Of a stretch of DNA of 64,000 nucleotides, positions 11,804-56,529 are shown piece by piece (position 1 is the first letter of the stretch; every line of letters begins with the position of its first letter). This DNA is from Saururus chinensis. Lineage: Eukaryota > Streptophyta > Magnoliopsida > Piperales > Saururaceae. Location of the stretch: the NCBI GenBank assembly GCA_035235625.1, contig CP141148.1, positions 14,385,057-14,449,056 of the forward strand, written 5' to 3'. Made by a program: the position numbers and the translations under genes. Below the pieces are notes generated by a model, which did no database searches, had not been told where the DNA came from, and was given only the letters and a program-made list of their open reading frames with translations.

Positions 11804-11808
11804 TGCAT

Positions 11809-13240
11809 TGATAAGTATGAAATCTATATCTATTTTATATGCCTTTTTACCTTATTTGCTAGTATAGATTAGGTTAATTTAGAGTTAATTATGGTTTATT
11901 TAGATTAAGATAGATATTAGTATTTTAGTTTAATTATTAATGATTTTGTAGTTATTAGTTGTTTAGACATGTATTTAAATCAAGATGGAATTTTAGTTAC
12001 TTTCTACATGTCTAAAGTATGATATTTTATGTTTTGTAGGTAAAGCGCGCTTATCGAAGTACTTGGACGATGTTTGAAATGATTAAAAATAGTCTTCACG
12101 TGCTTTAAAGTGATTTGGACAACTTTTCGGAGTTATAAACAAGTTCGAAATTAATATCGACACGAAGGAAAGCTTAATGAACAAAATATGAACTATCCAG
12201 GAAAACTGTCCAGATTGCAGAAACACTGTAGCCGATCAAACGGGGTCACTTACCAATCGATCGGGATAACATGAATTCAGACAAAAATACAGTTCAAGCG
12301 TTCGAACGGGCATGCAGGGCGATCGAACGGCATAATATGCAGTTTCCTTGTTTGACCCAAATTTCAATCCTTTTCATATTGGACTTCTTCCTACGGAACT
12401 TATGCCTATAAAAAGACATATTTGGCTTAAAATTGGGGGATTCCAGTAGATTTTCTGAAGAGAAAAAAAAAGAAGAAGATGGAAGAGAACTCAAAGCTTT
12501 TAATGGAGATTCAAGTGCTTTCTTCTACAATGGAAGGCTAGACTTTTCTTTTACTTAAGAGTTAATGAAGCTATAGATAAGTTTCAGTTTCTTTTCTTTT
12601 TAATTTAGATCTCAGTTGTGAATGATGACAATTGTATGATATGGATTTCCTTTTTAATGGAAGAGCTTTTAATGTTTATTCAAGTCTATGTTGATTTATT
12701 GTCTTGTAGATGATAGATTGATATGGTTTTGATATTTGCATCGATTCTAATTTCTGTGATTTAGATGAGATGGTCATACAATAGTTTTAATGTTCAGTTA
12801 ATTAATGACTTAGATGAGTTATACTAAGATTAGACGGGTCATGCCTATAGCTAGTTTAGTGTAGATGATTCGTGCTATTGTTGAAGATAGTTCATGCCAT
12901 AGAAGTTAATTAATAATTCTTTTTGAAGTAATTCTAGCTTGTAGCTGAGAATACTTGTTCATATTCACACTAGATTTAGATTAAAAGTTAAGAAATTATT
13001 ATGGTTCTATAGTGGATTCAATTTCCTAAGTAAATTCCATCGAATTAATCTCTTGCTTTTAAACTAGTTGATTTCTTTCTTTTGCTTAATTTAAGTTTAA
13101 GTTTGTTTTAGTTTTTAATCAGCAAATTCCTCTTTAGATTTAGTAATAATTCATCCGTCCCTGAGGTTCAACAACCCTTAAATACTTATCCTAGTACAAT
13201 TACCTTGTACACTTGCAAAGGGTTTAATTATAAACGATCA
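11809..13240 (+). mobile_element. Solo LTR, family 2 (copy 1), TSD TGCAT
   Basis: A 1432-base unit, TGATAAGTATG...AAACGATCA, bounded by TG and CA and flanked by identical 5-mers TGCAT (11804-11808 and 13241-13245). It is nearly the same as the unit at 26377-27797. A TATA box (TATAAAA, 12417-12423) with purine-rich downstream sequence suggests + orientation. There is no internal domain, PBS or second LTR, so it is a solo LTR left by LTR-LTR recombination. It interrupts the gag of the older Copia element. Upstream of the TATA box it carries four variant GATCGATC palindromes (12229-12335). Confidence 0.92.
12229..12345 (+). repeat. GATCGATC-type palindrome cassette in solo LTR 1
   Basis: Four sites in two pairs: CGATCAAACG / AATCGATCGG (12233-12264) and GTTCGAACGG / GATCGAACGG (12299-12330). 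The second pair is separated by GCATGCAGGGC. The same cassette, with perfect GATCGATC cores, is in the sister copy at 26783-26890. It appears in reverse complement in the unrelated family 1 LTRs. Confidence 0.7.
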
Positions 13241-14814: not shown

Positions 14815-17800
14815 TGTCACGCCCCGGCGATGCCCGACCCGAGCTGAACCCGGTCCAAGGGCCGGTCAAGCGCGCGGGGGCGACGAAGTGAACATTGAGA
14901 AAACGATCTAGCGGAAGACTTAACCCTAACCACGGGCGATTAACAGCAACACGAAGTGCGCACAATCCTTTGAGCAAGAGTAAATAAAAGGGAAGAAAAA
15001 GGTGTTGCTTATCACAAAGTAAACAACAATCTCAAACCCACAAACTTAGTTAAGTAAAGCCCACACCGGCTCAAAATAAGTCATAATCATCACAACTGTA
15101 GTATATGACATAAATCCAAAACAAGAACCCTACACAAAGGTTTGAACATAAAGCATGAAACAAACGCAGGTAAGTCACTCAACGATCTCCATCATCACAC
15201 CCAAGCTACCTCTGACCTTTCCTCAAAGAGGCAATCCTGTCCGTCTGCGTGTCGCACCACGCAGCCCCAAATCAAAACACAAAAGAGGGGTGAGTTTTAA
15301 CACTCAGCAATGGTTTTAATATCACTAACAATGTTGAAAATACGATAGCATGGCGATATAGTCTTTCAAAAACAACGATGTACAAGGTGTATCACTTTCT
15401 GATCACATATTTACATCACTTATACACTGCATAACATCATAACTCAAACATGCATGGATGTATCTCTAGCATACAAATTTCCACATGCATTCACATCATA
15501 ACCAATCCCGCATGGACGTATCTCTAACATACGTATTCCCACATATATAATGTCATCACAACCAATCCCGCATGGATGTATCTCTAACATACATATTCCA
15601 CATGCATAGTATCAAATCAAACTCCATCAAGGAGTAACCACACAATAATGTCACACAGACAGGAGCATAGACAAGGCCACGAAGGCGTGTCATGGTCCAA
15701 AATTCTACACAAGAATTCAAGAAAGATCGGGATTGTCAATCCATAATACTGCTCGCCCTGGACAATCCTGGCCAAGGATGTCCCATTCTCACACAGAGAA
15801 TCTAGAGCAGGGGTGTTCGCCCAGGGACATCTCTTGCGGAGGGAAGAGCCCGAGTTCTCACACAGAGAACCCTAGAACACGTGGTAGCGGGGTGCACACG
15901 GCATACCACACTGGATTCTCAGGGTCCAGATGACACACATAATAATATTCTCACATATCCGCAAGACAAGTACACAACTCGTCCCCACATCATTCCATTT
16001 AACAAGACTCAACCCGGGGAGTGCACTCGTTCCACACAGGAACTTCAATTTGTTCCACACAGGAACTTCAAATCAAAATATGTCCTTCCGGACCAATCAA
16101 TTTGCGATTAATCCACGACCGATCAACCCAGCACACAATTCCATCACATTGCATCCAATTGGTCAAATTCGATTAATCACGATGAAGCCTCAATTGGAAA
16201 TCCATTTTCATGATGCGTGAAGCATGGTACATGCGTGGGCAAAGCATACATGAATCCTAATCATGATAAGTGCTCTCACCAGCCCCTAATGCATCATTCA
16301 TGATCACAATCTTAAGCTTCAACATCATCATCTAACCCCACATGTGTGTGTGTCTAGAAGAAGCATTCCACAAAATGCATATCAACATGCTTGAAAATCA
16401 ACTCATTACCACACTACACATGTGAATCTCTATCCAAACATGAATTCCAGCGGAAATCATAGAAGAAGAATCGTTGAAATCATAGCTAGATTCAAAACTC
16501 AACCACAAAGGCTAAACACATGTAACATCACTCATTTTATCATTGAGTCATGGCATTCACCAACATTCACACACCATTAACCACAATCTATCATGACAAG
16601 TCAGTCCAACAATGATTGTAGTCCTACTGAAATATGCTTAACCAAAGGGAAACAACTATTCATAATTTCAAAATAACGATTCCAACATCATGCCACAAAA
16701 CATAAGTCATTCCACCATCTCTAAGCATATATCTCAACTCCATAAACTTAATATCATGCATTTCCAGTAGCCTAATATAGCTTAAAACACTCCACATTCA
16801 TATAAAATTGGCAAGCTAAAGTGGAATCACCAAAATAGGCATCATACACACAACATACAATTTTTCTGTGTAGCCGATCGATCGCCCTTCAGGCCGTTCG
16901 ATCGGTTACACGCAAAAATTTGAAATTTACAGTTCAGCCGATCGATCGCCCTGCAAGGCCGATCGATCGCCAACACGGCAGAACGATCATCTTCTTCCTT
17001 TCGCAAATCCAAACCGAAACACCATAGATAACACTTCAAATCCACATCTAACACCCTAATCATCATCAAAAGTCCTCCTTGACTTCCAGAATATGAAACC
17101 AAACCATAATAATGCAAAACCCTAAGAAATCGGGATTAAATAATTCCATTTTCTAATCTTACCATTAACACACTAAATCAAGCAAACCATTTCGAAATAA
17201 GCCAACAATGAAGAGTTTTACCATGGACAAATAGAGATTTTGAAGACCCATTACCTCAGCACTTGATTAAGCTCGGATTGAAGAGTCACCCTTCTTGAAA
17301 TCCTTGAAAACACAATGAGTTTGAATCAAACACCAATAGAAATCGATTTACTTAAGAAATCCCTAATTAAACCTTAGATCTAGGGCTTGTTGGTAGTAAA
17401 AATCGAATTTTGAATGTTAGGGTTTGTAGTAAAACACAAATCAGTAGCTTTTGATGGTTAAAAATGAATTGAATCAAGGGGAAAATGGTAGATTTGGAAG
17501 AAATTAAGAGAAAAGCCAAGGATTAGTGCTTAATTAGAGTAAGTTTACCTTAATCGGCTTCTAATTCGGGCCTAAGTGGGGATTAGGCCAGCCCTCCTTC
17601 CTTAGCCTATTCCCAAAAATGGAAATGGCTCTGGTTTGCCCTTTTATAGTAAGGGTTGGGGTATGCAAAGGTAAGTTTTGGGGTGTAAATATGAAAAGTA
17701 GGCTAAAAGTGGTTATTTTGCAAATTTAAGCACGAATTAAGCCTAATAAAATTCTGAAAATTTTTGTGTGACCTTAAGTATATGTCTAGGGTCATTTGAC

Positions 17801-22526: not shown

Positions 22527-22535
22527 TTACTCGAA

Positions 22536-22875
22536 GGGAAAATTATTAAAATAATAATTAAAAAAAATATTTACCAAAATATACCACTTTGGGAAATATT
22601 TCCCAAAGTGGTGTTCCTTTTTGCCACGCAGGCGCCAGCGTGATTTTTTTTTAAGTTGATTTCGTCGTTTAGAACGACGAAATTGGTTTAAATACGATTT
22701 CGTCATTCTAAACGATGGAACCTTTTATTACTTGACCCGGTTTCGTCGTTCAGAACGATGAAATCAACTTAAGCTGATTTCATCGTTCTAAACGATGAAA
22801 CTCCCGCACTTATCCCTTTTTGCCCTTTGGTCTCGCCTACAACACTAATTTCGTCGTTTAGAACGACGAAATCAT
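22536..22875 (+). repeat. Left TIR of the MULE with five tandem palindromes
   Basis: An outer AT-rich part (22536-22610) is followed by a GC-rich box (TTGCCACGCAGGCGCCAGCG). Then come five palindromes of half-site TTTCGTCGTT and its complement at 22659-22683, 22696-22721, 22740-22765, 22776-22801 and 22847-22873. Compared with the right arm it lacks two palindrome units between 'CTCCCGCACTT' and 'TGGTCTCG'. An extra short inverted repeat (CCACTTTGGGAAA / TTTCCCAAAGTGG, 22586-22611) is only in this arm. Confidence 0.92.
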
Positions 22876-25800
22876 CGTCTTTTTAGATTGCCCGTCCGCT
22901 CTGCCTCCATTCGGGTTTTACAGTGAGTTTTTGAGTTTTCAGAGATCAGTACGCTCCATCGCCACCATCTCGCCGCCTCCAGCCCGCTGCCATCTCGCTT
23001 CCCCCGGCCGGCCGCCATCTCGTCTCCTCTGGCCGGCCGCCAGTCTCTAATCCTTCGGCCCGCCGCCATCTCGCCTCCTCCGGCTTTGTAGTGAGTTTTC
23101 CCTACGCTCCACCACCTCCTCTGGCTCATAGACAGTCTTGCCTCTTCCAGCCTGCCGTCATCTCACCTCCTCTGGCCCACCGCCGGTCTTGCCTCCTCTT
23201 CCCCACCGCCTTCGCCGTCGGCCCCCATTCTAACCACGCCAATTTCGTCCCTATTCTGTGGTACGTTAATTCCTTCATTTTTTTTAATAATTACATTAAA
23301 AATGTGTTGATTAAAAGTATGTACTTAAATTAAATATTTGATACGTGTCTAGAGAATTTGGTTTGTGACATTGCATAGTTTGTGACATTAATTCGGTATT
23401 TTGGTGTAACTTGTGATTTGGATGGTTTAGTTAAAACTAAACATTTTTTGTTGAGTGGCTTTAGATGCTTTTTTTTACGGCTTATATGGTTTGTGACATT
23501 GCATGCGTTATTGTATCAATTGTGTAATTTTATTGTTTAGAAAATTTGCTTATTAATATAAAGTATTCATGATATGCTTATATAATTGGTAAATCTATTA
23601 ATTTCTATGCGTATATATTTTGAAAATATATTGGTTAGGGTAGATATTAGTATTAGTTTGTTTAATCTAATATTAATTTAATTTATTGTTTATGAATTAA
23701 TTGAATAGAAATGGCAGAAGAAATGGTTAGTTTTTTAATTAACTACAACCGCCGCATAAAAGGATTATTAATTAAGAAACCGTCTACATTTGATGAATTT
23801 GAGATGCACGTAGCAAGCAAGGTTGGGTTGGAACGAAGAAGATGGAAAATTACTATCAAATATAATATTCCGTCCTATGGATCGAGAATGATACTAATGC
23901 ACATAAATGATGATGCATCAATGGCTTTTATGTTTCACCACTCGTGTGAAAAAATTTCTATTGAGTTATTTCTCGAAAAAGAGGCTCGAGTGACTAGTGA
24001 AAGGCGAAGTAGTTCACATAGGAGCTCTCACAAAAGCTCACACAGGAGCTCAGATAGAAATGTGAACAATGAAGGTCATATGCAAATGCTGGTGGACGAT
24101 GAAGAAGAAAGAAATTTATCTATGACAGTAGCTTCAAATGAACGTCATAGGTCGTCTGCCCCTATTTACAATGGAAGTGGACCTAATTGGAGGTAAGGTT
24201 GATTTAGTTGTGAATACGTTTTCAATCTTATTATCCTTTAATGAAAATACGTTTATCTAAATTTTGAAAATTTGTGTGTAATATGGAAGGTCCACGACGC
24301 ATGCACACGAGCCATTTAGCGTTCAAATGTCTCAAGGCGGTGCATGGTATGAAACTCAAAGTTCGATGGGCCTTCATTACCCCTACACGTATGTTGGTCA
24401 TACTGATGCTGGACCATCTAATCAAAGGTGAAATCTATATTTATAAATGAATTCAACTTTTTTAGGCTTACGAAATTTAATACATATGCGATGTTTATAT
24501 GTAGAGGGGGATATGTCTACGGTGAAGATATTGATGAAAATAAGGATAATGAAGGTGAAGATAATATTGACGAAGTAAGTGGAGAAGATTCTGACATTAA
24601 TGTAGAAGGGGTTAGAGGTGAAGAAAGTGCTCAACAGATGGTTGACGGCGAGGGGGATGATGCGGTCGACAATGCTGTTGCTGGGAATGATATGAATGTA
24701 GATGATGAAGAGCCGTTGTACTGTGAAGTGGAGCCACTTTATGCACACATCACAGATGAGGAGATAGATGCGGCAATTAATTCTACAATGGTTATGGACC
24801 AACAAAATGAAGATGAGTTATATGTTGGTCGTATCTTTGAGAATAAAGAAGTATTCGTTACATCCTTGTAGGAGTTTTCTATTCAAAATCATGTCGAATA
24901 CAAGGTTGTACGAACAAATCCGTCGAAGTATAAAGTAAAGTGCATTAATAGCACTTGTCCTTGGAGAGTGCATGGCTCAATCAAAAGGGGTGGTGGGTAC
25001 TTTAAATTGAAGACGTACAAAGGTGATCACACATGTCAGAATGCCCAACTTAGCACAGATCATAGGCAATGCAGTGTCTCCTTTATTTCAAAGGTCATAA
25101 TGCCCGCTATCCAAGCCGAATTAACTCTAACACCAGGGGATATTATTCAAAGAATGAAGGAGAAGTACCATGTTGACATATCTTATAAGAAAGCATGGGC
25201 AGCAAGGAATATGGCGATCAAGGTTATTTATGGAGATTCGGTAGAATCATATAAACTGTTGCCAATGTACCTAAGGGCGGTACAAGAAGCGAATCCTGCC
25301 ACCTACTACCGCTTAGAGGTTGATGAAGTACATCGTGCAGATGGTGCCATATGTAGGAGATTTAAGCGTTTGGGCCGTCTATTGCAGGGTTTCGACATTG
25401 CATCCCCATGATTGGTGTTGATGCCACTCACTTGTATGACAGATACCCCGGTGCTCTTATGGCTGCAACGGCTACAGATGGAAATAATGGGTTATTTCCT
25501 CTTGCATTCGGGCTTGTCGGGTAGGAAGATGGAGACAATTGGAAATGGTTTCTAATGGAATTGAGGGATCATTTACTGATGGGCATGACGAACATCATCA
25601 TTATTTCAGATCGACATAAGGGGCTTCAAAAGGTAGTGCCTGAGGTTCTTCCAGAGCCGGATTACCACCATCGTTTTTGCATCCATCACATAAAAGCAAA
25701 TTTTAAGAAGGAGTTCAAAAATGATACACCGACGGACTTGATTGGGGCAACAGCTTGTGCACTCACAGTAGAAAAGTTTGATGCTAAAATGGACTTGATT

Positions 25801-26376
25801 GGTCAAGAGAGTCCTAGGGCAAAACATCTCCTCTTAGGAGGAGAATTGCATCCTGCACAGTGGTCCCTTGCACACGATGGTTTTATGACATTTGGCATGA
25901 CGACTACAAATATGGCTGAAAGTTTAAATAGTGTCTTAAAGGGGGCACGAGGTTTACCTATGCAGGCTTTAGTGTCAACTATCTTTTATCGGCTCATAAA
26001 ATTTTTTGTTAAACGATCTTCTGCCGCCTCTGCCATGACCACCCCATATACTCCTAGAGTGGAAGCCATATTGAGAGAGCAAACAAGAAAAATTGGGGAG
26101 TATATAGTTAATATGATCAACATGAGTCAATACGAAGTAACATCAATTCGTGCCCAAAAGGTTATGGTAAATGCTGCGATGCATACTTGTACATGCAACA
26201 TCCCTCAGGTTTATGGTTATCTTTGCTCGCACCTTATCACCGTGTGGGCAAAGCGGTGGGAGCCAATCCATGCATCACTGTTTTACACATCTTCTACTTA
26301 TAAAATGTGTACTCCGCAAAATTTTATTCTTCTCGTGGTCGGGAGTATTGGGAGAGGGATATACCTTTTGTGTTAT

Positions 26377-27797
26377 TGATAAGTATGAAATCTATATCCA
26401 TTTTATATGCTTTTTTACCTTATTTGCTAGTATAGATTAGGTTAATTTAGAGTTAAATATAGTTTATTTAGATTAAGATAAATAATAGTATTTTAGTTTA
26501 ATTATTAATGATTTTGTAGTTATTAGTTGTTTAGACATGTATTTAAATCAAGTTGGAATTTTAATTACATTATACATGTCTAAAGTATGATATTTTATGT
26601 TTTGTAGGTAAAGTGCGCTTATCGAAGTACTTGGACGATGTTTGAAATGCTTAAAAATAGTCTTCACATGCTTTAAAGTGATTTGGACAACTTTTCGGAG
26701 TTATAAACAAGTTAGAAATTAATATGGACATGAAGGAAAACTTAATGAACAGAATATGAACAGTCCGGTAAAACAGAAACACTGTAGCCGATCGATCAGG
26801 GTCACTTACCGATCGATCGGGATAACGTGAATTAAGATGAAAATACAGTGTATCCGATCGATCAGGCATGCAGGGCGATCGATCGGCATAATGCGCAGTT
26901 TCCTTGTTTGACCCAAATTCCAATCCTTTTCATATTGGACTTCTTCCTACGGAACTTATGCCTATAAAAAGACATATTTGGCTTAGAATTAGGGGAGTCC
27001 AGTAGATTTTAAGAGGAGAAAAAGGAAGAAGAAGATGGAAGAGAATTCAAAGCTTCTAATGGAGATTCAAGTGCTTTCTTCTACAATGGAAGGCTAGACT
27101 TTTCTTTTACTTAGGAGTTGATGAAGCTATAGATAAGTTTCAATTTCTTTTCTTTTTAATTTAGATCTCAGTTGTGAATGATGACAATTGTATGATATGG
27201 ATTTCCTTTTTAATGGAAGAGCTTTTAATGTTTATTCAAGTCTATGTTGATTTATTGTCTTGTAGATGATAGATTGATATGGTTTTGATATTTGCATCGA
27301 TTCTAATTTCTGTGATTTAGATGAGATGGTCATACAATAGTTTTAATGTTCAGATAATTAATGACTTGGATGAGTTATACTAAGATTAGACGGGTCATGC
27401 CTATAGCTAGTTTAGTGTAGATGATCCGTGCTATTGTCGAAGATAGTTCATGCCATGGAAGTTAATTAATGATTCTTTTTGAAGTAATTCTAGCTTGTAG
27501 CTGAGAATACTTGTTCATGTTCACACTAGATTTAGATTAAAAGTTAAGGAATTGTTATGGTTCTATAGTGGATTCAATTTCCTAAGTAATTTCCATCAAA
27601 TTAATCTCTTGCTTTTAAACTAGTTGATTTCTTTCCTTTACTTAATTCAAGTTTAAGTTGTTTTTAAATTTTAAATAAGCAAATTCCTCTTTAGATTTAG
27701 TAATAACCCATCCGTCCCTGAGGTTCGACAACCCTTAAATACTTATCCTAGTACAATTACCTTGTACACTTGCAAAGGGTTTAATTATAAACGATCA
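26377..27797 (+). mobile_element. Solo LTR, family 2 (copy 2), TSD GTTAT, inside the transposase gene
   Basis: The 1421-base unit, TGATAAGTATG...AAACGATCA, is flanked by perfect duplications GTTAT (26372-26376 and 27798-27802). It is very similar along its whole length to 11809-13240, with a TATAAAA box at 26963-26969. It splits the transposase C-terminus. The transposase reading frame is continuous across the site when the LTR and one GTTAT are ignored, so the insertion came after the MULE had settled. Its GATCGATC cassette at 26788-26888 has perfect cores, unlike copy 1. Confidence 0.95.
26783..26890 (+). repeat. GATCGATC palindrome cassette in solo LTR 2
   Basis: Four near-perfect sites: CCGATCGATCAGG, CCGATCGATCGGG, CCGATCGATCAGGC and GCGATCGATCGGC. 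The last two are separated by ATGCAGG. It lies about 80-180 bases upstream of the TATA box. Confidence 0.75.
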
Positions 27798-28068
27798 GTT
27801 ATACCCACCGATAGCAACAAGGCAACCCGGTCGCCCACGGTCTGTTCGCATTAGGAATACTATGGACCGCAAAACAATGGAAAGAGATGGTAGAGGAGGA
27901 TATAAATGCGGGAGGTGTAAACAAAGTGGGCATAATAGTAAATCATGTAGAAACCCTCCTGTTGATTGGTAAACATATAATCAACCTTTGTATTTATTAT
28001 ATTTTTTTAGTTATGTACGCATGTATTCCTTACGATTAATGATATGATCTTCATTTTCCACATATCAT

Positions 28069-30205
28069 ATGGATCATGCAGAGCCTTGTTACGGGCCAGG
28101 CCTGAGTGACGCTTCTTTACTCGTAGAGCAGGAGTCACATAGGTCTGCTGCTATTTGGAGAGGAGAGGTATGATAACTTTTTTTAAAATTTGTTTCATTT
28201 TTTTTGGTTGATATAGTACGACATGTTATAATTTTAAAATTTATTATAGGACCCCGGGTGCCTTGAGTGCACTGAACATTTTAAATATCCCCGCCATTGG
28301 CCCATAGATGAGCGTATGTTACCTTATATCGAGCAAGCGGGATTTGGCCATTTCATTCATCTACAGTATGTCTGTCTCGATCGGCCTCTATTGACAGCTC
28401 TTGTTGAGAGATGGAGGAGGGAGACACAGATGTTTCATTTGTCATATGGAAAGATGTCCATCACGCTCATGGATGTGCTAGTTCTATTAGGACTCCGTAT
28501 TGATGGACGTCCGGTGACAGGCACGACAGGAGGAGCTCATATGGATATATTAGTTAGACTTCTTGGTAGAGCTCCTCCTACTACAGTGATGCGTGGTAGC
28601 CGAGTGAGCCTACGATGGCTCTTGCAGGAGTTTCGCGAGCTCCCAGCATATGCTACAGAGATAGTTATCGAGCAGCATGCACGAGCCTATATATTGCATT
28701 TACTTGGAGCCACCATATTTGTGGATACCACGAGCAGCCACGTGCATGTTTCGTATCTCTCTCTCCTTGCCGACTTTGACATGGCTGGCACTTATTCATG
28801 GGGTAGTGCTACTCTCGCATTCTTATACCAAGAGTTAGGAAATGCATGCCAGGCCATGACCTCGGGGATTGCGGGCTGTCTGACCCTTCTTCAGGTAATT
28901 AATTGTGTAACTTTACTTGGTGTTTTAGTCACGTATAATTTTTTAATTCTAATATTTGTTATCACTATTTTATGACATAGTTATGGTCGTGGGAGCACTT
29001 ACACGTCGGCCGACCAACTGCTGAGATGGATCGCTTGGTCGAGGGTGCTCCATTAGGGGCGAGGTAGGTTGTATTTATGTTTACCACATTACTTTTTAAG
29101 CAACATTTTACGTACATATGCTGAACTCATTTCTTAAATTTAACTCCTTAAGGTGGAATGTTCAGAAGATGAGAACCGAAAATCCACAAGGAGTCCTCCG
29201 TTTGTATAGAGGGGAGTTAGACCACCTGCGGCCATACCAGGTAATTTTATTACCGTGTTGAACTTTTTTATGTAATGATTTTAAAATTTTTTGTCATTAT
29301 TTAAACTAAATTATCTTTATATATTGTATAGATTATTTGGCAGCCGTACTCGGAGGACTTGTTGGCTGTGATACCTCCACTCTGCACGGACGGTTGAGAG
29401 GTGTGGCTTTCTCGAACCCCTCTAATATGTTACGAGATTATAGAGATGTATGTGCCAGATCGTGTAATGCTCCAGTTTAACCTGGAGTATTGTCGACTTT
29501 GTCCATCCCATCGCTCGACAGGGCCGCCATATTACCGACTGGGCTATATATCATGCGTCGTATATTGCTCGATGGGAGGATAGGAGAGCCACTGTTATTA
29601 GAGGGGAGATGGCTACGACATTGCAAGATGTTCGTAGTACTTATATGCACTGGTATTTACCGATTACACGGCGATATATTTTACCGCGCGATGATGTAGA
29701 GGAGATGACATATCAGCCTAGGGGAGCATCTGAGGTAACTCTAGTAAGTACAACTTTGTTAATTAAGGCATATATTATTTTCTTATTTAGTTTTAATTAT
29801 TTATCTAATATTTAATTTATTTTTTTATAGCTTCGTCAGATTCGACATACTAATGCGTATTTGAGTGATGCACTTGTCACCTGTACTTCGTGCGAGGACT
29901 TAGCAGCAACATGTGAGTCGGTGATTAGAGTGTCTAATGATGTCCTTCGTAGCTTGCCACTACTTCATTCGGTGATCACGGATGTTCATCGAGATTATCC
30001 TGTCGACGAGGCCGCTCAGACGCAGCCGATGCACTCTTCATGCCCTGATATTCCATCATCATCAGCAGCATATAGCTCTCTTCCAGGTTCATCATTTCCA
30101 GACACTACACATGTCGCTCAGCCAGATCCGATTTTATATTATAGACGACATCGGCCAGCTTGTATTGTACCATCTATTACTTATGCTGAGCCGGAGCTGG
30201 AGCCA

Positions 30206-30239
<34 letters not shown>

Positions 30240-30361
30240 AGGAGCCTGACATGGAGTCACAGCCGGAGCCGGAGCCCCAGCCCCAGTTGGAGCCAGAGCC
30301 AGAGCTAGAGGTAGATCATGAGGAGCTCGTACACCACCGTCGAGGACGAGGTCGAGGATGA
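28069..30361 (+). pseudogene. Plant mobile domain (PMD, MAIN-like) protein, disrupted
   Basis: Six exons fit GT/AG rules and frame: 28069-28167, 28250-28894, 28981-29063, 29153-29240, 29332-29743 and 29831-30361. The product is a PMD/aminotransferase-like protein, related to MAIN and the 'phosphatase 7 long form' family. It shows HLQYVCLDRPLLTALVERWR (start of the domain), SITLMDVLVLLGLRIDGRPV, then LWSWEHLHVGRP and TYMHWYLPITRRYI. The C-terminus has a Glu-Pro dipeptide run (30190-30310) and an Arg-Gly tail (RRGRGRG). Exon 5 holds an in-frame TGA (29395-29397) and a net +1 frameshift near 29480-29500. Cellular MAIN proteins act in transcription/TE silencing in Arabidopsis; the role of transposon PMD is unsettled. 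The start lies about 100 bases after the transposase stop, same strand. Confidence 0.88.
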
Positions 30362-30584
30362 GGACGAGGATGTAGGAGATTATGACATTACTTATGATGT
30401 ATTATATTTGTTACTCGTCTATGATGTACTTTACTTATATTTGTTATGGTGATATTCATGATAGTGATATTTGTTATGGGTGGAATGAATGAAGTCGTGC
30501 ATGTATTGTGTATGTTTTGAATGAATGAACAGGGACAGGTGATAAAATTAGTTTTAAATGGTAATTTTTAAAAAAATTTAATTT

Positions 30585-31005
30585 GATTTTGTCTTTTAGA
30601 ACGACGAAATCAGTGTTGTTCCGAGACCAAAAGCCGAAATTAGCCAAGTTTGGCAGTTTCGTCGTTCAGAATGACGAAATCAGCTTAAGTTGATTTCGTC
30701 ATTATAAACGACGAAATCGGGTCAACAAGTGCGGGAGTTTTGTCGTTCAGAACGACGAAATCAGCTTAAGTTGATTTTCTCGTTCTAAACGACGAAATCG
30801 GGTCAACTAATAAAAAGTTTCGTCGTTTAGAACGACGAAATCGTATTAAAACCAATTTCGTCGTTCTAAACGACGAAATCAACTTAAAAAAAAGCCACGT
30901 TGGCGCTAGTTGCTTGGCTGGTGCCTGCGTGGCAAAAAAGAACACCACTTTGGAAAATATATTTTAATAAATATTTTTTTTAATTATTATTTTAATAATT
31001 TTCCC
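30585..31005 (-). repeat. Right TIR of the MULE with seven tandem palindromes
   Basis: The reverse complement of the left arm, with seven palindromes (starts 30585, 30656, 30691, 30737, 30772, 30817 and 30854), the GC-rich box (TGGTGCCTGCGTGGCAAAAA) and the AT-rich end. Units are spaced about 35-45 bases apart, often joined by AGCTTAAGTTGAT, itself partly palindromic. Confidence 0.92.
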
Positions 31006-31014
31006 CTACTCGAA

Positions 31015-40708: not shown

Positions 40709-43700
40709 TGTAACGCCCAAGATTTTTCATATATTTTCCTCAAAATTCACGGAAATTTTTTGCAATATAATTGCTATAAATTAGAAAAAATGTCGAATAT
40801 GAAACCTGTGAAAGCAATTTTATAATTTAAAACATAACACATTGGTTTTCCAATACAAATTTTTACTCATTCGATCAAACATCATACGACTAAACCGAAC
40901 ATCCTTAGGCGCTACTCGAAAACAACTGTATGGATAAATTGCTATGATCATAGACTTTAAATACAAATATCTCTGAGGCATCCCTGAGTGCAAGTCTCAT
41001 AACAGTCCAAAGTCTAATCCAAATGAAAGTTCAGAATATATAAACATCTTAGTTCTCGTCTCACCCAATACATCAGATCATGGCACAAAATAATACTCAC
41101 AGTGAGCTAAGTGTATACCTGAGTCCAAGGGAATCAATCCACCTCGAAAATGAGCATTTATCTCCAGGAGCTTTCTGTCACAAACCTGCAAAAGCCTCCC
41201 TAACAACTGGCCTAAAAAAAATAGGGTAATGAGTATTTTCATACTCAGTAGGAAAATACCCAGTAGGGGAGTTCTAAACAGTGAACTCAGTAAATCCATA
41301 CATAGAAGCGTTCATGCAATTCAAACATGAAGCAAACAAGTATATCATAATCACGCTCATATGCATACAAATACGCATATCATCATGCTAAAATCATACC
41401 ATCAAACCGATCTTGCACATACACTCTTAATCATAGTCATATAAACTTACTCGTACCACCGTATGCTTTCTCAAACAACTTACACATACCTGTACGACCC
41501 TACTCGTACAATCATATGCTTACTCATACAGCTTACACATACTTGTATGACCTTACTAGTACAATCTTACACTTGTTGTATGACCTTACTCGTATAGTCA
41601 TATGCTTACTTGTACGACCTTACTCATACAATCTTACTCAGAATCATACTCTTACAGTTGTGCTCATATTCATACTCTTACAGTCTTACACATACTCATA
41701 CTTATACTCTTACCGTCGTGATCATACTCATACTCTTACAATAAGTCGTACACATACTATCAATCACTGAAGCTCATTACAACTAATAAGCTCCAATGTC
41801 GAAATAGAAAAGAATGTCACTGGGGCATCACCTTAACCTCCAGGGAGTGACTAGACGCCATGGACTTTTCTGAAGGCAAGGCACACCAATGCTCATGGGC
41901 ACAGGATCAAACAGGTAAGAGCAGGTCCATGATACTACTTACCTAAGCGTGCAAACATAAGCACCCATACATAAGGGGTCATACAATTGCCCACCATAAT
42001 GGGTCTTATAGTGCCAATGCCACTCTTGGGCAAAAACGTACAATGCCACTCTTGGGCGGAATCATACAACGCTCTCAACAGAGCATCAAACATCTGGGCT
42101 TATACAGCACACAGACCAAATCGGAAACATACATCACTCTCAACAGAGCATCAAATGTATGAGCTTATACAACACACATACTAAATAAAAAATATATGTC
42201 GCTCTCAACAGAGCATCAAATGTCTGGGCTTATACAGCACACAAACCAAATCGAAAATATATGTCGCTCTCAACAGAGCATCAAACTCTAGTGCTTTATA
42301 CAACACACAGACAACATCCCGCAGGATAAACACCATGGCAAGACATGAGAAATACTCAGTCAACTCATTATCCGCTAGCTCAAACAAAGAACTTAATCTG
42401 TCAAACCCTCAAGCCTCAAACTCACAATGCTATCATTAGCTGTGCTTATAATTCAAGTTTGAATTAAGTAAATTATGCGGTACAATTATGCCAAACAAAC
42501 TCACAGTCCTCGACTGATCAAACCAAAGCTGAGCTAGATCAAAACCTTGTCAGGGCAGCAAACTTCACTTAACCCGTCCGAATCATGATCAACTCATTGT
42601 ACATCAAATCCTTACAGTCTTACATACTCCACCATCCAACTTATGGCCAAAACATCATACACAAACGTCATCAAACTAAGCTCCTCATAACCAAACCCAG
42701 TTATCACCCTCTTACTTATACCTCACTTATTATGCTTACTTTTTACTTCATAATCTGTACGTTGTGCTTGTACAATTATGCACACTCTTACTGTCTGACA
42801 ATCCCCAACATGTGCTCTGATCCAAAATAATCCACTCTAATCCTTGCCTGTCATACTCATATCCTCTATCATCCGTCATACGTTTGCACATCCATATCCA
42901 TATCCATATCAAACACTGTCACTTCTTACCATCCATAGCCCATACCTCTGCCCACATGCACATACATATATCCATAGCATAGACAAATAACCATCATACA
43001 TACGTATGTCCATCACACATACGTATAACATATACATACGTTCATACACACGTAGCTTACAAACATTCTCACTAGTCATCACTAGCGCATACATACACAT
43101 ATGAAGCTTACCAACAAACACGCTAGCCATCACTAGCACACTCAATCATACAAAGCTTACCAACAAGCACGCTAGCCATCACTAGCACATACTCAATCAA
43201 CAGATGAAGCTTACTAACAAACATGCCAGCCATCACTAGCACATACTCAATCCACATACGAAACTTACCAACAAACATGATAGTCATTACTAGCACATAC
43301 TCGATCAACATACGAAGCTTACAAACAAACACGCTAGCCATCACTAGCACATACTCAATCAACATACGAAGCTTACAAACATACACGCTAGCCATCACTA
43401 GCACATACATACATCTAACATACTTACAGCCAACATGCATGTCATATGCATTTCAACATGGCATAATTCATCCTCTTATATCATGCAAATGGATCATAAT
43501 CTAACATCCATAGCATTCAATCATATAGTCCTAGCATGTTGCTACTCATTTAAAGAATGGTATCATGAAATTATAAGTTCAAAGCTCCCCTACCTCGTAA
43601 TCATGACGTTTGATGGCGAGCACATGACGGTGGCAGCGTCGATAATGAATTGGCGGCCACAAGCATTGCCAAGTTGTGAGAACTATTATCTTGAGGATTT

Positions 43701-45135
43701 TAGGAAATACCGGAAACAATCACGGCTAAACGGGGTGTTAGAAGTCAATGCAGCAAAATCCGCGACCAACGGCGGCACACTAGGCGGCCGGGAGAAAGGT
43801 CAAGGCAACATGAGTGGCGGTGCGACTAGATGTCGAGGGTGTACTCACTAAAGGTCGGCCGGCAGCTAAGAAGTACTCTGTCGGCCGCAAGACGTCAAAA
43901 TCGGCTATGGACAGCACCCAACGATGACAATTTCAAGTCAACAAGGGCCAGCATACTGGTGGAGAGCATGGGGTGATGCTCGAGGACAGAGGGAAGATGG
44001 GTTGGACAGTAACAACCCAAGGCGCACAAAGGGGCAATGGAGCTATGGCTAGAAAGTGGTGGCCGATCAGAGCAGCGACATTGCCAATCACCACCCACAA
44101 CCAACAAATTTGGTGTGGGCAGCTGTGCATATAGCACAGTATAGGGCCAAGGCAAGCGGGCCATTCTAAGCGGAGGTATAATCGGGCCAAGTGGGGCTGA
44201 CCCTTACTATCACGGAGCCGGGGCAAAGCCCACGATGGTCAAATGGCCCATGGCTCGCCGATGGCAATGACCCGAGACACACCCAAAGCTTCTAATCGGG
44301 CGGAGCAAGACAATAGGGGTGAAATGGGGTCGGAAACGGCAACCCCCTACCGACATTGGGTCGATGTAGGCTAGGCGAAGTCCGTCTGGTGGCCAGACAA
44401 TGACTGGAAACACACCGGCATCTAAAAACATCATGGACATTGAAATGAAATATAGGAACAAAAACCTGACCAAAGTACCGGTAGCTCACAACAGAGCAAA
44501 GAAAGCATGGTGGCGGCTCTAGCCAGCGCTTATGGGTTCCTAGCGGCCAACTAAATATAAGTCTAATTGAGGGCGGCCACAAATGACATCAAAATCGCAC
44601 CCCCACAGCTCAAAAATCAGATTTGAAGGAGAATAAAACCGAAGAAAAGTTCGGTACCTCATGGAGGAGCGAAGAGGCCATGGCAGCGGTCATAGCCGGT
44701 ACCTACGGACTCGTGGCAGTGAGGCAAAGAGGATCCCAACAAGAATTGGCAAAATCCGACAATGGAGGAGGGAGAATGGAGCGACCAGAATCTCACTCGG
44801 GTTCTCACAAAAGTCACTGGACGTGAAAAAGTTTCTGGGTTCAAAACTTACTGGAATCTGATGTTCGGATTTCAATTTATATACTCTTTTTAAGTTTTCC
44901 ATTTATGTCCCCAACACGCTTTCCCAGTTACGCGTTGTAGCTCCAAAATTTATGCCATAAGCGGGTGATGAAGCCTACGGTCCACGACTAAGCCCTACAC
45001 CCGACTCTACGCGTATAAATATTGGAGAAAATACACAAATATGAATACACTGAAGCGTCACATTTTCACGCCGAAAATGACTAGAAAAATAGTAGAAAAA
45101 ACATAAAAAATCGTAGAAAAATCAAGGACCTTACA
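40709..45135 (-). mobile_element. Solo LTR, family 4 (copy D), 4.4 kb, TSD GTAAT
   Basis: The unit runs TGTAACGCCCAAG...AGGACCTTACA with perfect 5-base duplications GTAAT (40704-40708 and 45136-45140). It is collinear with 48839-53557. On the minus strand it would start TGTAAGGTCC, like family 1 (TGTAAGGACC), and a TATATAAATT box lies near 44874-44884 on that strand, so it probably points left. The interior has tandem blocks (41500-41770 CATACTCTTACAGT type, 42060-42300 CGCTCTCAACAGAGCATCAAA type, 43040-43420) and a GC-rich part (43620-44830) with open frames but no known domain. No gag-pol. Confidence 0.92.
43040..43420. repeat. Tandem repeat inside solo LTR D, about 55-58 bp unit
   Basis: About seven copies of ACGCTAGCCATCACTAGCAC followed by ATACTCAATCAACATACGAAGCTTACAAACAA. 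Each copy contains the inverted pair GCTAGCCATCACTAGC. The array makes long open frames on both strands that are not genes. Confidence 0.9.
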
Positions 45136-49622: not shown

Positions 49623-49849
49623 ACAACTTACACAAACACCCTTATCCAGGGTCATACAATTTACTCGTACCACCGTACGCATACTCATACAACATACGCA
49701 TACTTGTACGATCTTACTCGTACAATCGTATGCTCACTCATACAGCTTACCCATACATGTACAACCTTACTCGTACAATCAGACTCGTACGACCTTACTC
49801 GTACAGTCTGCACAAAATCATACTTATTGTCTTACTCAGAACCATATTC

Positions 49850-50065
49850 TCACAATCGTACTCATCCTCTTACAGTCGTGCTCATACTCATACGCTTACA
49901 GTCTTACTCATACTCATACGCTTACAGTCTTACTCATACTCATACGCTTACAGTCTTACTCATACTCATACACTTACAGTCCTGCTCATACTCATACACT
50001 TACAGTCCTGCTCATACACATACAGTCGTACTCACACTCATACAGTCGTACTCATAATCGTACAC
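49850..50065. repeat. Tandem repeat in LTR E, about 26-28-bp unit
   Basis: Copies of CTCATACTCATACGCTTACA followed by GTCTTA/GTCCTG. The array is open in three frames on +, which explains the 180-200 codon frames at 49480-50098. These are repeat artefacts, not genes. Confidence 0.9.
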
Positions 50066-50294
50066 ATATCAACGACCACTGAAGCTCATTACAACTAATA
50101 AGCTCCAGCGTCGAATTGGAAAAGAATGCCACTGGGGCAACACCTTAACCTCCGGGGAGTGACTAGACGCCATGGACTTTTCCGAAGGTAAGGCACACCA
50201 ATGCTCATGGGGCCTTTGGATCAAACAGGTAAGAGTAGATCCATGATACTACTTACCTGAGCGCGCAAACATAAACACCCACACATAAGGGGTC

Positions 50295-50475
50295 ATACAG
50301 TTGCCCACCATAATGGGTCTTATAGTGCCATAGAATCGCCCACCATAATGGGTCTTATAGTGCCAGAGAATTGCCCACCATAATGGGTCTTATAGTGCCA
50401 TAGAATTGCCCACCATAATGGGTCTTATAGTACCATAGAATTGCCCACCATAATGGGTCTTATAGTACCATTGCC
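50295..50475. repeat. Tandem repeat in LTR E, about 35-bp unit
   Basis: Five copies of TTGCCCACCATAATGGGTCT plus TATAGTGCCATAGAA. Copy D has a single unit at 41979-42013, so this array expanded after the two LTRs diverged, or shrank in D. Each unit contains the inverted pair GCCCACCATAATGGG. Confidence 0.92.
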
Positions 50476-50519
50476 ACTCTTGGGCAGAAACGTACAGTGC
50501 CACTCTTGGGCGAAAACAT

Positions 50520-50765
50520 ACAACGCTCTCAACAGAGCATCAAACGTCTGGGCTTACACAGCACACAGACCAAATCAGAAACATACGTCGCTCTCAGCAG
50601 AGCATCAGACGTCTGGGCTTATACAGCACGCAGACAAAGTCAGAAACGTACATCGCTCTCAACAGAGCATCAAACGTCTGGGCTTATACAGCACGCAGAC
50701 CAAATCAAAAACAATGTCGCTCTCAGCAGAGCATCAGATGTCCGGTGCCCTATATAGCACACAGA
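50520..50765. repeat. Tandem repeat in LTR E, about 60-bp unit
   Basis: Four copies of CGCTCTCAACAGAGCATCAA plus 'ACGTCTGGGCTTATACAGCACACAGACC'. Each begins with the hairpin-like CTCTCAACAGAG. Similar copies are in D at 42061-42300. Confidence 0.9.
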
Positions 50766-53747
50766 CAACATCCCGCAGGATAAACACCATGGCAAGACAT
50801 GATAAATGCTCGGCCAACTCATCAGCGGCCAGCTCAAACACGGAACTTAATCCGTCGAACCCTCAGGTCTCAAACTCACAACGCTATCATTAGCTGTGCT
50901 TATAATTCCAGTTTGAATTAAGTATATTATGCGGTACAATTATGCCACACAAACTCACAGTCCTCGACTGGTCAAATCGAAGCTGAGCCCGATCCGAAAC
51001 CCAAGTTCGTCAGGGCAGCAGACTTCACTTACCCGTCCACATCATGGACAAAACTCATCGTACACCAAACCCTTACAGTCTTACACTTCGCCATCCATCT
51101 TATGGCCAAAACCTTACACTGACATCCTCAAATAACGCTCCTCAGAGCCAACCCAGTTGTCGCCCTCTTACTTATATCTCACTTATTATACTTATTTTTC
51201 ACTTCATAATCTGTACGTTATGCTTGTACAATTATGAACCCTCTTACTGTCTGACAAATGCCCAACACACAATCCACCCCAAACTGATCCATTCTAATCC
51301 TTGCCTGTCATACTCTTATCCTCTGTCATACGCTTACACAACCGCATCCAAATTCAGACAGAGCTTCTGTCACCTCTTACTGTCCATCGCCCATACTTTT
51401 GCCCACATACTCTTACACCTACCCAAAGCATAGGCAAATGCCATCATACATATGTATGTCTCACACATACATAGAACATACACATACGGTCATACATACA
51501 TAACTTACAAACATGCACGCTAGCCATCACTAGCACATGCATACATCAAATGTACACGCTAGTCATCTCTAGCACGTGCACACACATTCTTACATACTTC
51601 AAACATGCACGCTAGCCATCACTAGCACATGCATAACCCATACATAGCATATTGACATATTTGCTAGCCATCGCCAGCGCATACATAATCCACATCCATA
51701 AAACATGCATACATCTCATGCCTATCAATCATACCATACAATCATGCTTACACGCACCTCATGCAATCGGATCGTTACTTAACATCCAAGCATGGAATCA
51801 TACAATCCTAGCATGCTGCTACTCATTCAAAGCATGCTTCATGAATTTACGAGTTCAAAACTCCCCTACGTCGTAATCATGGCGTTCGATGGCGAGCACA
51901 CGACAGTGGCGGCGTCGGCGGCGGAGTTGGCGGTCAAACCGTTGCCTGGCTGAGAGAGCTGCTGTCCCGAGGATTTTAGGATGCGCCAGAACTATCACGG
52001 CCAAACAGAGTGTTAGAACTCAAAGCGGTAAAACCCGCGATCCACGGCGGCACACCAGGGCGGCCGGGAGAAATCTCATGCCAACATAAGTGGCGGTGCG
52101 ACCAGAAGTCAAGGGTGTACACTCTGAAGATCAGCCGGTGGCTAAAACGTGATCAGCCGGCCACAAAGACATCGAAATCGGCCGTGGACAGCACCCAACG
52201 GCGACGATTTCGGTCAACAAAGGCCCACATAAGGGCGGAGAGCGTGGGGCAATGCTCGAGAATCAAAGGAGAGGTGGAGGACGGCTCTAGTGGTCAACTC
52301 CACTCGGTGGCAAAGCCAACCGATGGTTAGGCGGCAAGAATGCGGCGCCTAAACCCAGAAGTACACGCGTGGCCACATGCACACGCGACCCAAAAGGGCG
52401 GGGGAACTGGCTGAAATGAGGCGACTCATGGCCCACAAAAGCCAACCGGGCTAAGGCCCTAGCGGTGGCCAATCTAAGTGGCGACATCGCCGATCGCCAC
52501 CCACAACCAAAACCCATGGTGTGGGCGGCTATGCATCTCGCACGGTATAAGGCCATGACAAGCGGCCCATTCCGAGCGGAACAATAATCGGGCCAAGTGG
52601 GGCTGACCCTCACTGTCATCGAGCCGGAGTAGAGCCCACGATGGCCAAATGGCCCATAACTCGCCGATGCCAACGACCCGAGACGCACCCAAAGCGTCTA
52701 ATCGGGCGGAGCAAGGCAATAGGGGCGAGGCAGGGTCGTAAACGGCAAACCCCTACCGACACTGGGTCGAGGTAGGCTGGACGGAGTCCTACCGGTGTCC
52801 GAACGGCAACCGGAAACCCACCGGCGTCCAAAAACTCCCACGGACAGTGAGATGGAATAGTAACAAAAACCCGACCAAAAGATCGGTAGCTCACCACGGA
52901 GCGAAGAAAGCATGGCGGTGGCTCCAGCCAGTGTCTATGGGTTCCTAGCGGCCAACTAAACATAAGTCTAGTTGAGAGCGGCCGCAAACGATGTCAAAAT
53001 CGTACACCCACAGTGCAAAAACGGGATTGAAGGAGAGAAAAACCCAAAAAAAAGTTCGGTACCTCGTGGATGAGCGAAGAGGCCGTGGCGGAGGTCATGG
53101 CCGGTACCTACAGACTCGTGGCGGTGAGGCAAAGCGGATCCTGACAAAAATCAACGGAATTCGACGACGGAGGAGGGAGAACGGAGCGACCGGATATGCC
53201 CTCGGGTTTTCTCTTCTCCTCTCTGGACGTGAAATTTCTTCTGTAAGTTTCTGGAACGAAACTTACTGGAGATGGCTTTTTAAGCCGTGATTTTTCTATT
53301 CACCTTTTTTATTTTTATATCTATGTCCCCAATGCGCGTTAACTCACTGGTTACGCGCTATAGCTCCAAACTTCGCGCCGTAAGCGCGCAACAAGGCCTG
53401 TGGCCCACGACTAAGCCCCACACCCGACTCTACGGGTATAAATACGGGGAAAAGACACAAATACCCATACGCTGAAACGTCACATTTTCCCGCCGAAAAT
53501 GACCAGAAAAATGGCAGGAAAATCCCAGAAAATCGTAGAAAAATCAGGGACCTTACAAATATACAGTGGCACACGTAAAGTAATATACAGAGCACTGAAT
53601 ATAACATAGTTCAGAAACATGGCTGACCTTTAACTAATAAAGACCAACACAATGCACAAGACAATGGACACCGTTCAGGAAACAATGCACTAATTGTTAC
53701 TTGAAAAATACCGACTCCCGCTCAAAAGAGTAATTGTATGCTAACAG

Positions 53748-54155: not shown

Positions 54156-54876
54156 AGCTTAAACTTTTACTCTGAGAACATCCATAACCACCATCGATTC
54201 ATTAACCAAGGTAAAATTCTATGTCAGGGCCCCGTTCACTCCATGAACTGGTCCCAACCCTAAAGAGGGTATTTTAGTTATTATCTTGATTAGGTGTTCT
54301 TCCCCCAATCCAAAGACAACCAAAATCTCTTGATTAGTCTTTATTAACCTTAAGCTACTGATATAACTTTAAACATCAATAATAAAAGCATACATCAACA
54401 TAATCAACATGACAAGAACTTAGACTCATGCTGAGATGAACTAGCCAATTCAACATTATAATGAAAAGGACTTGGGGCTGAGATGCATAACTCAAGTTAT
54501 ACACCTAACATGACAAGGTTATGCTGAAACAACCATCAACATTCACCCTAATGTATATCACAATCAAGGCTAAAATTCAGGGATAAATTAGCTTAATTTC
54601 AAAGGCATCTTAGGCTCAAATTCAGAGACTTAATAAATATGAATATATCATGAACTAAGGCTCAAAAGTCAAGGATTGAATCAACAAGATTATAACCTAA
54701 ATCAAAGCTAAGAATCAAGTATTAGGTAGGCAATAATGCAACCTAAACTAGGGCTGAAACTTAGATGTTCTCTCAGCATGATTATAACATAAATTAAGGC
54801 TGAGAATTTTGTATTACATTGGCTAAAATAGAGCCTAAAACAAGGCTTAAAAATACTGATCTAAGTAAGCAAAAGC

Positions 54877-55775
54877 AGAGCCTAAACCAAGGCTTCAAAT
54901 CAGGGATTTGAGTAGCCAAAGTATGGCCTAAACTAAGGCCATGAATCAGGGATTAAATTGGCCAAATTATGGCCTATGGTAAGGCCACAAATCTGGGATT
55001 AAATTGGCCAAAGTATGACCTAAAGTAAGGCCACAAATCAGGGATTAAGTTGGCCAAGGTATGGCCTAAAGTAAGGCCACGAATCAGGGATTAAGTTGAC
55101 CAAAGTATGGCCTAAAGTAATGCCACGAATCAGGGATTAAGTTGGCCAAAGTATGGCCTAAAGTCAGGCCATAAATCAGAGATTAAATTGGCCAAAGTAT
55201 GGCCTAAAGTAAGGCCACAAATCAGGGATTAAGTTGGCCAAAGTATGGCCTAAAGTTAGGCCACGAATCAGGGATTAGATTGGCCAAAGTATGGCCTAAA
55301 GTAAGGCCACGAATCAGGGAATAAGTTGGCCAAAGTATGGCCTAAAGTCAGGCCACAAACCAGGGAATAAGTTGGCCAAACTATGGCCTAAAGTAAGGCC
55401 ACAAACCAGGGAATAAGTTGGATAAACTATGGCCTAAAGTAAGGCCACAAACCAGGGAATAAGTTGGCTAAACTATGGCCTAAAGTAAGGCCACGAATCA
55501 GAGATTTAATTGGCCAAAGTATAGCCTAAAGTAAGGCCACGAATTAGGGAATAAGTTGGCCACAGTATGGCCTAAAGTCAGGCCACGAACCAGAGATTAA
55601 ATTGGCCAAAGTATGGCCTAAAGTCAGGCCACGAACCAGAGATTAAATTGGCCAAAGTATGGCCTAAAGTAAGGCCACAAATCAGGGAATAAGTTGGCTA
55701 AACTATGACCTAAAGTAAGGCCACAAACCAGGGAATAAGTTGGTCAAACTATGGCCTAAAGTAAGGTCAAAACTA
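54877..55775. repeat. Tandem array, 46-bp unit, about 19 copies
   Basis: The unit reads AGGCCACGAATCAGGGATTA then AGTTGGCCAAAGTATGGCCT then AAAGTA. It contains the inverted words GGCCA/TGGCC at regular spacing. Copies differ at a few fixed positions (AATCAGGGATT against AACCAGGGAAT), giving sub-families in blocks, as in an array grown by local duplication. Confidence 0.96.
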
Positions 55776-56529
55776 GGGAATGAATTCAGTAGAGTGTATG
55801 CCCAAATCATGGATAATAAACATGACTAGAATAAGAATCATTCATGCCTAACATATGGCTAAGATAAATGAAAAAAATCAGCAACATGCTTGAATGAATT
55901 AAGGCTAGTTCATGACATCAAAAGAAACCCCTAGAACCAAGCTGAATTATGACTGAATTACATCTATCAAAACCTCATGCTTAAGGTGTAAAAAGAAGCA
56001 CATACTTGTATAAACTTGTCCCCAAAACTCCTAGCCCTTGCTCCTACACTTCTAAGCCTTCAATTCAATCCAAAAATGGCTATTTTGTGCCCTCTAAAGC
56101 TGCTAGCTATGGAGGTCCTTGCTAAGAGAAGGAAGAGGAGAGAAGAGATGGAGAAGAAGGAGGCTGAACCAAAATCAATCCTTTCTTATATAAGGCTTCC
56201 CCTCTTCAGACTCTTGGGTGCCCTCCTCCTCCTCTAAGACTCTCTATTAATTACAATCCCGGAATTACAATCCCTGCCCCATTAACAATAGGAAACCAGC
56301 CTACATACATGCTCAAAACAGTCCCAAAAGTTTTCTAACCCAACTAGATGTATAGTTGATCCCTCCTCCAACTTTTTCCACCACTCCTAGCACTCTTCGG
56401 ACTCCTACTTGGGCTAGAAGTCCTATGCTCACATGCTATCTCACATCAACAAAGTTTTAGTTGGGTCCTCTTCTTCCTTAGAGTCCTTAACCAGCTAGAA
56501 CTCTTTGCCTCTTTAAAATCCTAGTTCTT

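Follow-up and report, generated by a model that had tools for sequence, protein, structure and literature searches.

The 64,000-nucleotide stretch of the Saururus chinensis genome analyzed here (contig CP141148.1, positions 14,385,057 to 14,449,056; hereafter the window) contains at 22536-31005 a complete Mutator-like element (MULE), which is readable from end to end and is a broken copy with two genes, one for a transposase and one for a plant mobile domain (PMD) protein. The predicted fold of the PMD protein resembles that of VANC21, a MULE-encoded anti-silencing factor, and the terminal inverted repeats (TIRs) of the element hold an array of a 23-bp palindrome. We propose, at a probability of about 0.45, that this VANC21-like PMD binds the palindrome array and thereby serves the element as an anti-silencing factor of its own; the second gene would then likely help the family to escape silencing by the plant. 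An earlier note on this DNA, made from the sequence alone, had described a two-gene MULE at this place, and that observation is confirmed. The fold match and the palindrome array go beyond it.

The PMD gene occupies 28069-30361 of the + strand and consists of six exons:

28069-28167, + strand: PMD exon 1
28250-28894, + strand: PMD exon 2, of 215 amino acids, with a predicted model that matches the VANC21-DNA structure
28981-29063, + strand: PMD exon 3
29153-29240, + strand: PMD exon 4
29332-29734, + strand: PMD exon 5, interrupted by an in-frame stop (29395-29397) and by a frame change within about 29468-29525
29831-30361, + strand: PMD exon 6, which encodes a Glu-Pro repeat and an RGRG tail

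The stop and the frame change in exon 5 are the only ones of the gene. The product matches the Pfam family PF10536, as had been anticipated, with an E-value of 2.5e-84 and 283.8 bits (curated cut-off 34.9), over profile positions 1-346 of 347. The AlphaFold2 model of the PMD gave one significant fold match, which is to the VANC21-DNA structure, a protein-DNA complex of the MULE-encoded anti-silencing factor; a Foldseek search with the model of the related protein P0002 gave no significant match. Since Pfam searches at E-values up to 0.1 found PF10536 alone in the PMD product, and neither DUF1985 nor DUF287, the protein is not classed as a VANC. The Glu-Pro peptide repeat of exon 6 lies at 30196-30320, close to the C-terminus.

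The two ends of the element, together with the palindromes that they hold, are as follows (no strand is assigned to these features):

22527-22535: left target-site duplication, TTACTCGAA, identical to the right one at 8 of 9 positions
22536-22880: left TIR, about 345 bp, recognized as five inverted-repeat pairs
22660-22871: five copies of the palindrome TTTCGTCGTTNNNAACGACGAAA with up to 3 mismatches; none in 100 shuffles
30580-31005: right TIR, longer than the left by one extra repeat unit
30587-30878: seven copies of the palindrome with up to 3 mismatches; none in shuffles
31006-31014: right target-site duplication, CTACTCGAA, identical to the left one at 8 of 9 positions

An inverted-repeat search of the window paired the arms 22536-22583/30958-31005 at 96%, 22596-22639/30917-30960 at 93% and 22632-22811/30727-30906 at 91%, and 280 of the 340 aligned columns are identical in the full alignment of the TIRs. 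The observed-to-expected ratio of CpG is 2.02 in the left TIR versus 0.60 in the window. Agreement at 8 of 9 positions, as seen in the target duplication, has a frequency of 0.000275 for two random 9-mers of the window. TIRs, a target duplication of about 9 bp, and a MULE domain accompanied by a MuDR DNA-binding domain are thus all present, as in MuDR-type MULEs. The TIRs, the 9-bp duplication with a single mismatch and the placement of both genes on one strand had been read in the same way by the earlier note. The left TIR also includes a perfect 28-bp palindrome at 22584-22611, a place at which 15 bases are missing from the right TIR.

With up to 3 mismatches allowed, the window has 12 copies of the 23-bp palindrome, all of them confined to the two ends of the element, five on the left and seven on the right. 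In the source assembly (516 Mb, 11 contigs) the exact sequence occurs 1152 times and its reversed control not once. The neighborhood of these sites was assessed for the first 50 of the 1152, listed places that lie on contig C1 up to 25.94 Mb: 34 of the 50 are within 10 kb of a listed match to the element family, versus 0.72 by chance, and the other 16 are not. Every listed PMD match in this stretch of C1 (10 of 10) has a palindrome within 12 kb, four of them on both sides, and most of these palindromes lie some -4.0 kb or +2.4 kb from the listed PMD matches, which are the positions of the two TIRs. One of the seven listed transposase matches in the stretch, C1:7878859, has no listed palindrome nearby. 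Within the window, 10 of the 13 departures from the palindrome consensus are CpG transitions, which suggests that the palindromes were methylated in the past.

The search of the assembly revealed a large family, whose examined siblings agree with the window copy in gene order and spacing. PMD exon 2 identified 2136 candidate places, of which 150 were scored, one being that of the window and the remaining 149 having 88-94% identity to it; for a piece of the transposase, 142 of 2952 candidate places were scored. Pairing was counted over all of these 150 and 142 listed places, which are samples of the candidates: a listed PMD match is found within 8 kb downstream, on the same strand, for 68 of the 142 listed transposase matches (0.17 expected by chance), and 65 of the 68 pairs are spaced 1.1-1.4 kb from start to start. 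None of the listed pairs is on opposite strands. A single same-strand pair, at G000:C10:6250269 and 6255287, is in the reverse order, with PMD upstream of the transposase, and perhaps represents two adjoining copies. Nine siblings (L030-L038) were fetched and read over the transposase-PMD region; transposase sequence precedes the PMD gene, without an inserted long terminal repeat (LTR), in eight of them, so that siblings with both genes, for which the earlier note had suggested a search, are present at these loci as well as among the listed pairs. One of the eight, L032, has a deletion within the transposase, and the match of the ninth, L030, begins only at PMD exon 1. Siblings with one gene between the same TIRs, which by the earlier note would have spoken against its reading, were seen at none of the nine loci; this count pertains to the transposase-PMD region rather than to the full span from TIR to TIR, and it includes L030 with its match from PMD exon 1 only. 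Less damaged copies of the family do exist, because several listed transposase matches have open frames of 711-712 amino acids with no stops within the match, and the mapped PMD exons of L032 are free of stops, those of the other eight fetched siblings having one or more. Twenty further loci around PF10551 matches, chosen mostly for long open frames, had a PMD match (E 1e-5) in 0 of 20 cases; they are other MULEs, matched weakly by our transposase query in seven cases and not at all in 13, and are uninformative on the PMD-MULE family.

The transposase gene, its secondary insertion and the spacer that separates it from the PMD gene are laid out thus:

22881-23259, + strand: inferred non-coding leader exon of the transposase transcript, placed by eye on a C/T-rich stretch followed by GT at 23260
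23711-24192, + strand: transposase exon 1, an open frame consistent with splicing, with a MAEEM start common to the relative P0120
24290-24427, + strand: transposase exon 2
24505-26375, + strand: transposase exon 3, with the MuDR DNA-binding domain, the MULE catalytic domain and a weak SWIM, interrupted by in-frame stops and frame changes
26371-26375, no strand assigned: GTTAT, left target duplication of the solo LTR, a perfect duplication
26376-27797, no strand assigned: solo LTR with TG...CA ends, a secondary insertion in the transposase gene
27798-27802, no strand assigned: GTTAT, right target duplication of the solo LTR, a perfect duplication
27803-27972, + strand: end of the transposase gene, with a CCHC-type zinc knuckle and a TAA stop, the TAA being present in all eight siblings that hold the site
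27973-28068, + strand: spacer of 96 nt from the transposase stop to the PMD start, in the window and in siblings

Pfam was run on the translated pieces, with X at stops and frame changes. The transposase matched MULE (PF10551, E 4.3e-19), again as anticipated, DBD_Tnp_Mut (PF03108, 1.8e-10) and Transposase_mut (PF00872, 8.5e-7); SWIM at 18.4 bits (curated cut-off 19.6) and the zinc knuckle at 19.3 (cut-off 27) are both under the cut-off in the window copy. SWIM exceeds it in the relatives P0120, P0128 and P0131, and the protein P0120 ends shortly past the zinc knuckle. Exon 1 has no Pfam match over the cut-off. The inferred leader intron has its acceptor AG directly before the transposase ATG, and its donor at 23260 scores low. 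The transposase has in-frame stops at 24869-24871 and 25522-25524 and is further damaged by the LTR insertion and by two or more frame changes, so that the "few lesions" of the earlier note understate its damage; the PMD gene has one stop and one frame change. The block 26377-27802, which had been excluded from the element, corresponds to the solo LTR; the insertion site is empty of the LTR in eight of the nine fetched siblings, the ninth being without the site.

The PMD start had been placed about 100 bases past the transposase stop, and the arrangement of TAA, 96 nt and ATG is kept in all eight siblings with the junction. An AG is found 6 nt 5' of the PMD ATG in six of these eight, and is absent from the window copy and from two siblings. 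Because this AG precedes the PMD ATG as one precedes the transposase ATG, it is plausible that one leader, spliced to either start, could yield both proteins. A transposase-PMD fusion by splicing was also considered and is the less likely reading. On a simple scale of donor plus acceptor that we devised, the best stop-free pair joining the frames reaches 5.4, at the cost of most of PMD exon 1, and pairs retaining more of that exon sum to at most 5.1 (among the top eight pairs); seven of eight comparison introns sum to 6.1-8.7, and the inferred leader intron to 3.1. As the frame-fusing pairs score poorly, two separate genes appear to be the better reading.

Among other plants, the nearest PMDs are those of Aristolochia fimbriata and A. 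californica, and in three PMD trees the window groups with Aristolochia with support of 98, 100/99 and 90/88 (85 rows in the first of these trees; matches spanning less than 180 residues and rows without a species code were left out). The transposase tree (54 rows; stretches of less than 200 residues and rows without a species code were left out) yields the same grouping with a weaker support of 89, and in a smaller transposase set good support (99/96) is confined to the group that Aristolochia and Dendrobium form with the window. Searching with the two genes together yielded 102 proteins. Matches to both genes are seen in 33 of 223 proteins, with the transposase first in 32 of the 33, a count biased towards same-strand pairs because gene models merge neighbors only on one strand; the sole two-domain protein with PMD before the transposase is P0133 of Cuscuta epithymum. 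The two-domain proteins come from Aristolochia fimbriata, two Dendrobium, two Vitis, Senna, Cuscuta, Heliosperma, Setaria and Lolium. Distances in PMD correlate with those in the transposase across the nine units compared (Mantel r 0.67, p 0.00085), for which 13 of the 33 two-domain proteins were picked for coverage alongside the window; this is expected from long joint inheritance, though plant relatedness alone could give part of this correlation.

Ikeda et al. 2017 proposed two independent captures, in the grasses and in Amborella (PMC5418596), whereas the proteins listed above extend also to Aristolochia, Dendrobium, Vitis, Senna, Cuscuta and Heliosperma; our data fit an association of transposase and PMD that is wider, and perhaps older, than the grasses and Amborella, and the same holds for the table in Dupeyron et al. 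2019 (PMC6446971). In a clade test of 11 rows labelled genic, by name or by short branches, against 16 MULE-linked rows, one genic clade was not rejected (p-AU 0.107), and hence neither one nor several captures is shown; as regards the PMD-C clade of MAIN and MAIL, the PMD trees include only rows named MAIN-LIKE or similar in their source, with no Arabidopsis row and no PMD-A/PMD-B outgroup.

The model that we favor runs as follows. Transcription of an intact family member would begin within or close to the left TIR, the TIRs would be the sites at which the transposase cuts the element, and the PMD protein would come from the same strand, through either splicing or readthrough. The PMD protein would load on the CpG-rich palindromes at the element ends and there maintain hypomethylation and expression of the element, the role that VANC proteins play in VANDAL elements; on this view the transposon would encode a DNA reader of which MAIN and MAIL1 are relatives in the host. 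We infer both the binding of the palindromes by PMD and the removal of silencing by that binding. Several points weigh against this proposal: 1) it would be simpler if the palindromes bound the transposase. 2) A profile search for sequence homology between PMD and VANC returned no solved chain. 3) A clean signal of selection, sought in the PMD exons and in the transposase piece, was not found. The ratio of non-synonymous to synonymous substitutions (dN/dS) is 0.24 in PMD exon 2, with dN below dS in 45 of 45 pairs, but this indication of purifying selection was set aside because the siblings had been picked by similarity of that very exon; the ratios in the other PMD exons (0.72) and in the transposase piece (0.53) are no clearer than some out-of-frame controls.

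The first of these points belongs to a rival view that we regard as rather unlikely, in which PMD helps the element otherwise, either as a transposition partner or by competing with the host MAIN/MAIL1/PP7L complex, and the palindromes are transposase sites. The second gene of maize MuDR offers a comparison for the role of partner, and the transposase must bind the TIRs, in which the palindromes sit. Moreover, host PMD proteins act within a complex that includes PP7L (PMC7156037), and anti-silencing by a MULE-borne PMD is presented as speculation by Ikeda et al. (PMC5418596). What favors DNA reading by PMD over this view is that, among solved folds, the nearest belongs to a protein-DNA complex, that of the anti-silencing factor of another MULE. 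The frequent capture of host genes by MULEs (PMC13317346) raises the prospect of PMD being a mere passenger, transduplicated from a host gene and hitchhiking with no benefit to the transposon, and both the dN/dS values outside the query exon and the internal stops in eight of the nine fetched siblings agree with it; yet the gene order recurs in siblings, with an identical spacing in eight of eight, the same order is seen in proteins of magnoliids, orchids, grasses, grape, legumes and others, and the distances of the two genes go together in the manner of long joint inheritance, all of which leaves this a distinctly poorer explanation. Most improbable to us is that the palindromic TIRs are mainly a source of hairpin RNA and small RNAs, with the array a target of silencing rather than an anti-silencing site. 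The TIRs are able to form many hairpins, their CpG changes resemble methylation decay, and in tea 175 phased-small-RNA loci are at PMD genes (PMC10673657); such a role leaves unexplained a gene with a VANC fold travelling with the array, and it is compatible with anti-silencing by PMD.

PMD has been described as a domain of unknown function (PMC7156037), and a role of transposon PMDs in countering silencing was proposed without a mechanism (PMC5418596, PMC8616336); that the reason for a transposon keeping a PMD is unsettled, as the earlier note remarked, agrees with PMC5418596. The fold match and the palindrome array add a testable mechanism, with a named protein, a candidate binding site and an effect, and if it is true MAIN and MAIL1 gain a likely biochemical activity, namely sequence-specific DNA binding. 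A more tentative extension is that PMD and VANC form one ancient superfamily of transposon-borne DNA readers, with PMD-MULEs such as this one as a counterpart of VANDALs that reads palindromes, and in which the PMD of each family would read its own CpG-rich TIR array and lift silencing from that family alone, with MAIN and MAIL1 as domesticated or shared versions.

The window contains several repeats besides the element. An LTR at 11807-13240 is 94% identical to that in the transposase gene, and is a solo LTR of the same family with TGCAT on both flanks. Repeated CGATCGATC-type motifs occur at 26790-26885, within the LTR in the transposase gene, and short matches to this motif part are present at 16873-16969. 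A large local duplication comprises 41391-44751 and 49658-53156, blocks about 8.1-8.5 kb apart with pieces that are roughly 82-91% alike, each with several short tandem repeats. Tandem arrays are also seen at 54770-55897 (46-bp units), 58473-58799 (units of about 33 bp) and 56491-56811 (about 25 bp).

With respect to known systems, maize MuDR (mudrA/mudrB) is an autonomous MULE that likewise combines a transposase with a second gene; mudrB is not known to be related to PMD, and its transcription runs towards mudrA, whereas both genes in the window run in the same direction. The table of Dupeyron et al. (PMC6446971) lists PMD-bearing MULEs of flowering plants as groups 42 and 45-50, and MULE-linked PMD-C is reported in grasses and Amborella (PMC5418596). 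These share with the window element a transposase and a PMD in one element and, in several groups, TIRs and 9-bp duplications; PMD-carrying MULEs and their guessed anti-silencing role are already published. In contrast to the separate downstream PMD gene on the strand of the transposase seen here, PMC5418596 describes transposase-PMD fusion proteins and the PMD is often antisense in the table of PMC6446971, and the available text of the two sources mentions no palindrome array for their PMD-MULEs. The host proteins MAIN, MAIL1 and MAIL2 belong to PF10536, as does the window PMD, and an N-terminal pattern with L(L/Y)xxQxxHxS is common to the window PMD and P0163 (source name MAIN-LIKE 2); the host genes have short branches and lie outside TIRs, whereas the window gene lies within a MULE.

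VANC anti-silencing proteins, too, are encoded in a MULE beside the transposase. They contain DUF1985 and DUF287 where the window protein has PF10536, and possess variable regions with tandem peptide motifs (PMC5735166). The VANC21 motif is of 9 bp, with sites in non-coding regions including introns and upstream regions (PMC5735166, PMC10398659), as against a 23-bp palindrome in the TIRs of the window element. The latter has long TIRs. The sources available on VANDAL elements disagree, a review calling them non-TIR and the table of Dupeyron et al. listing TIRs of 46-174 bp for the VANDAL group, along with "PMD and/or DUF in half the members" (PMC6446971); no row of our transposase tree is named as a VANDAL transposase. 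A fold link between PMD and VANC was not found in the available text of the literature searched, and as the paper of entry 9LNJ is not part of that text we leave priority unjudged. Hypomethylation has been demonstrated for VANC only. What it has in common with the VANC-bearing VANDAL elements of Arabidopsis is a transposase accompanied by a second protein, the VANC21 fold, here as a prediction, and a motif repeated in non-coding DNA.

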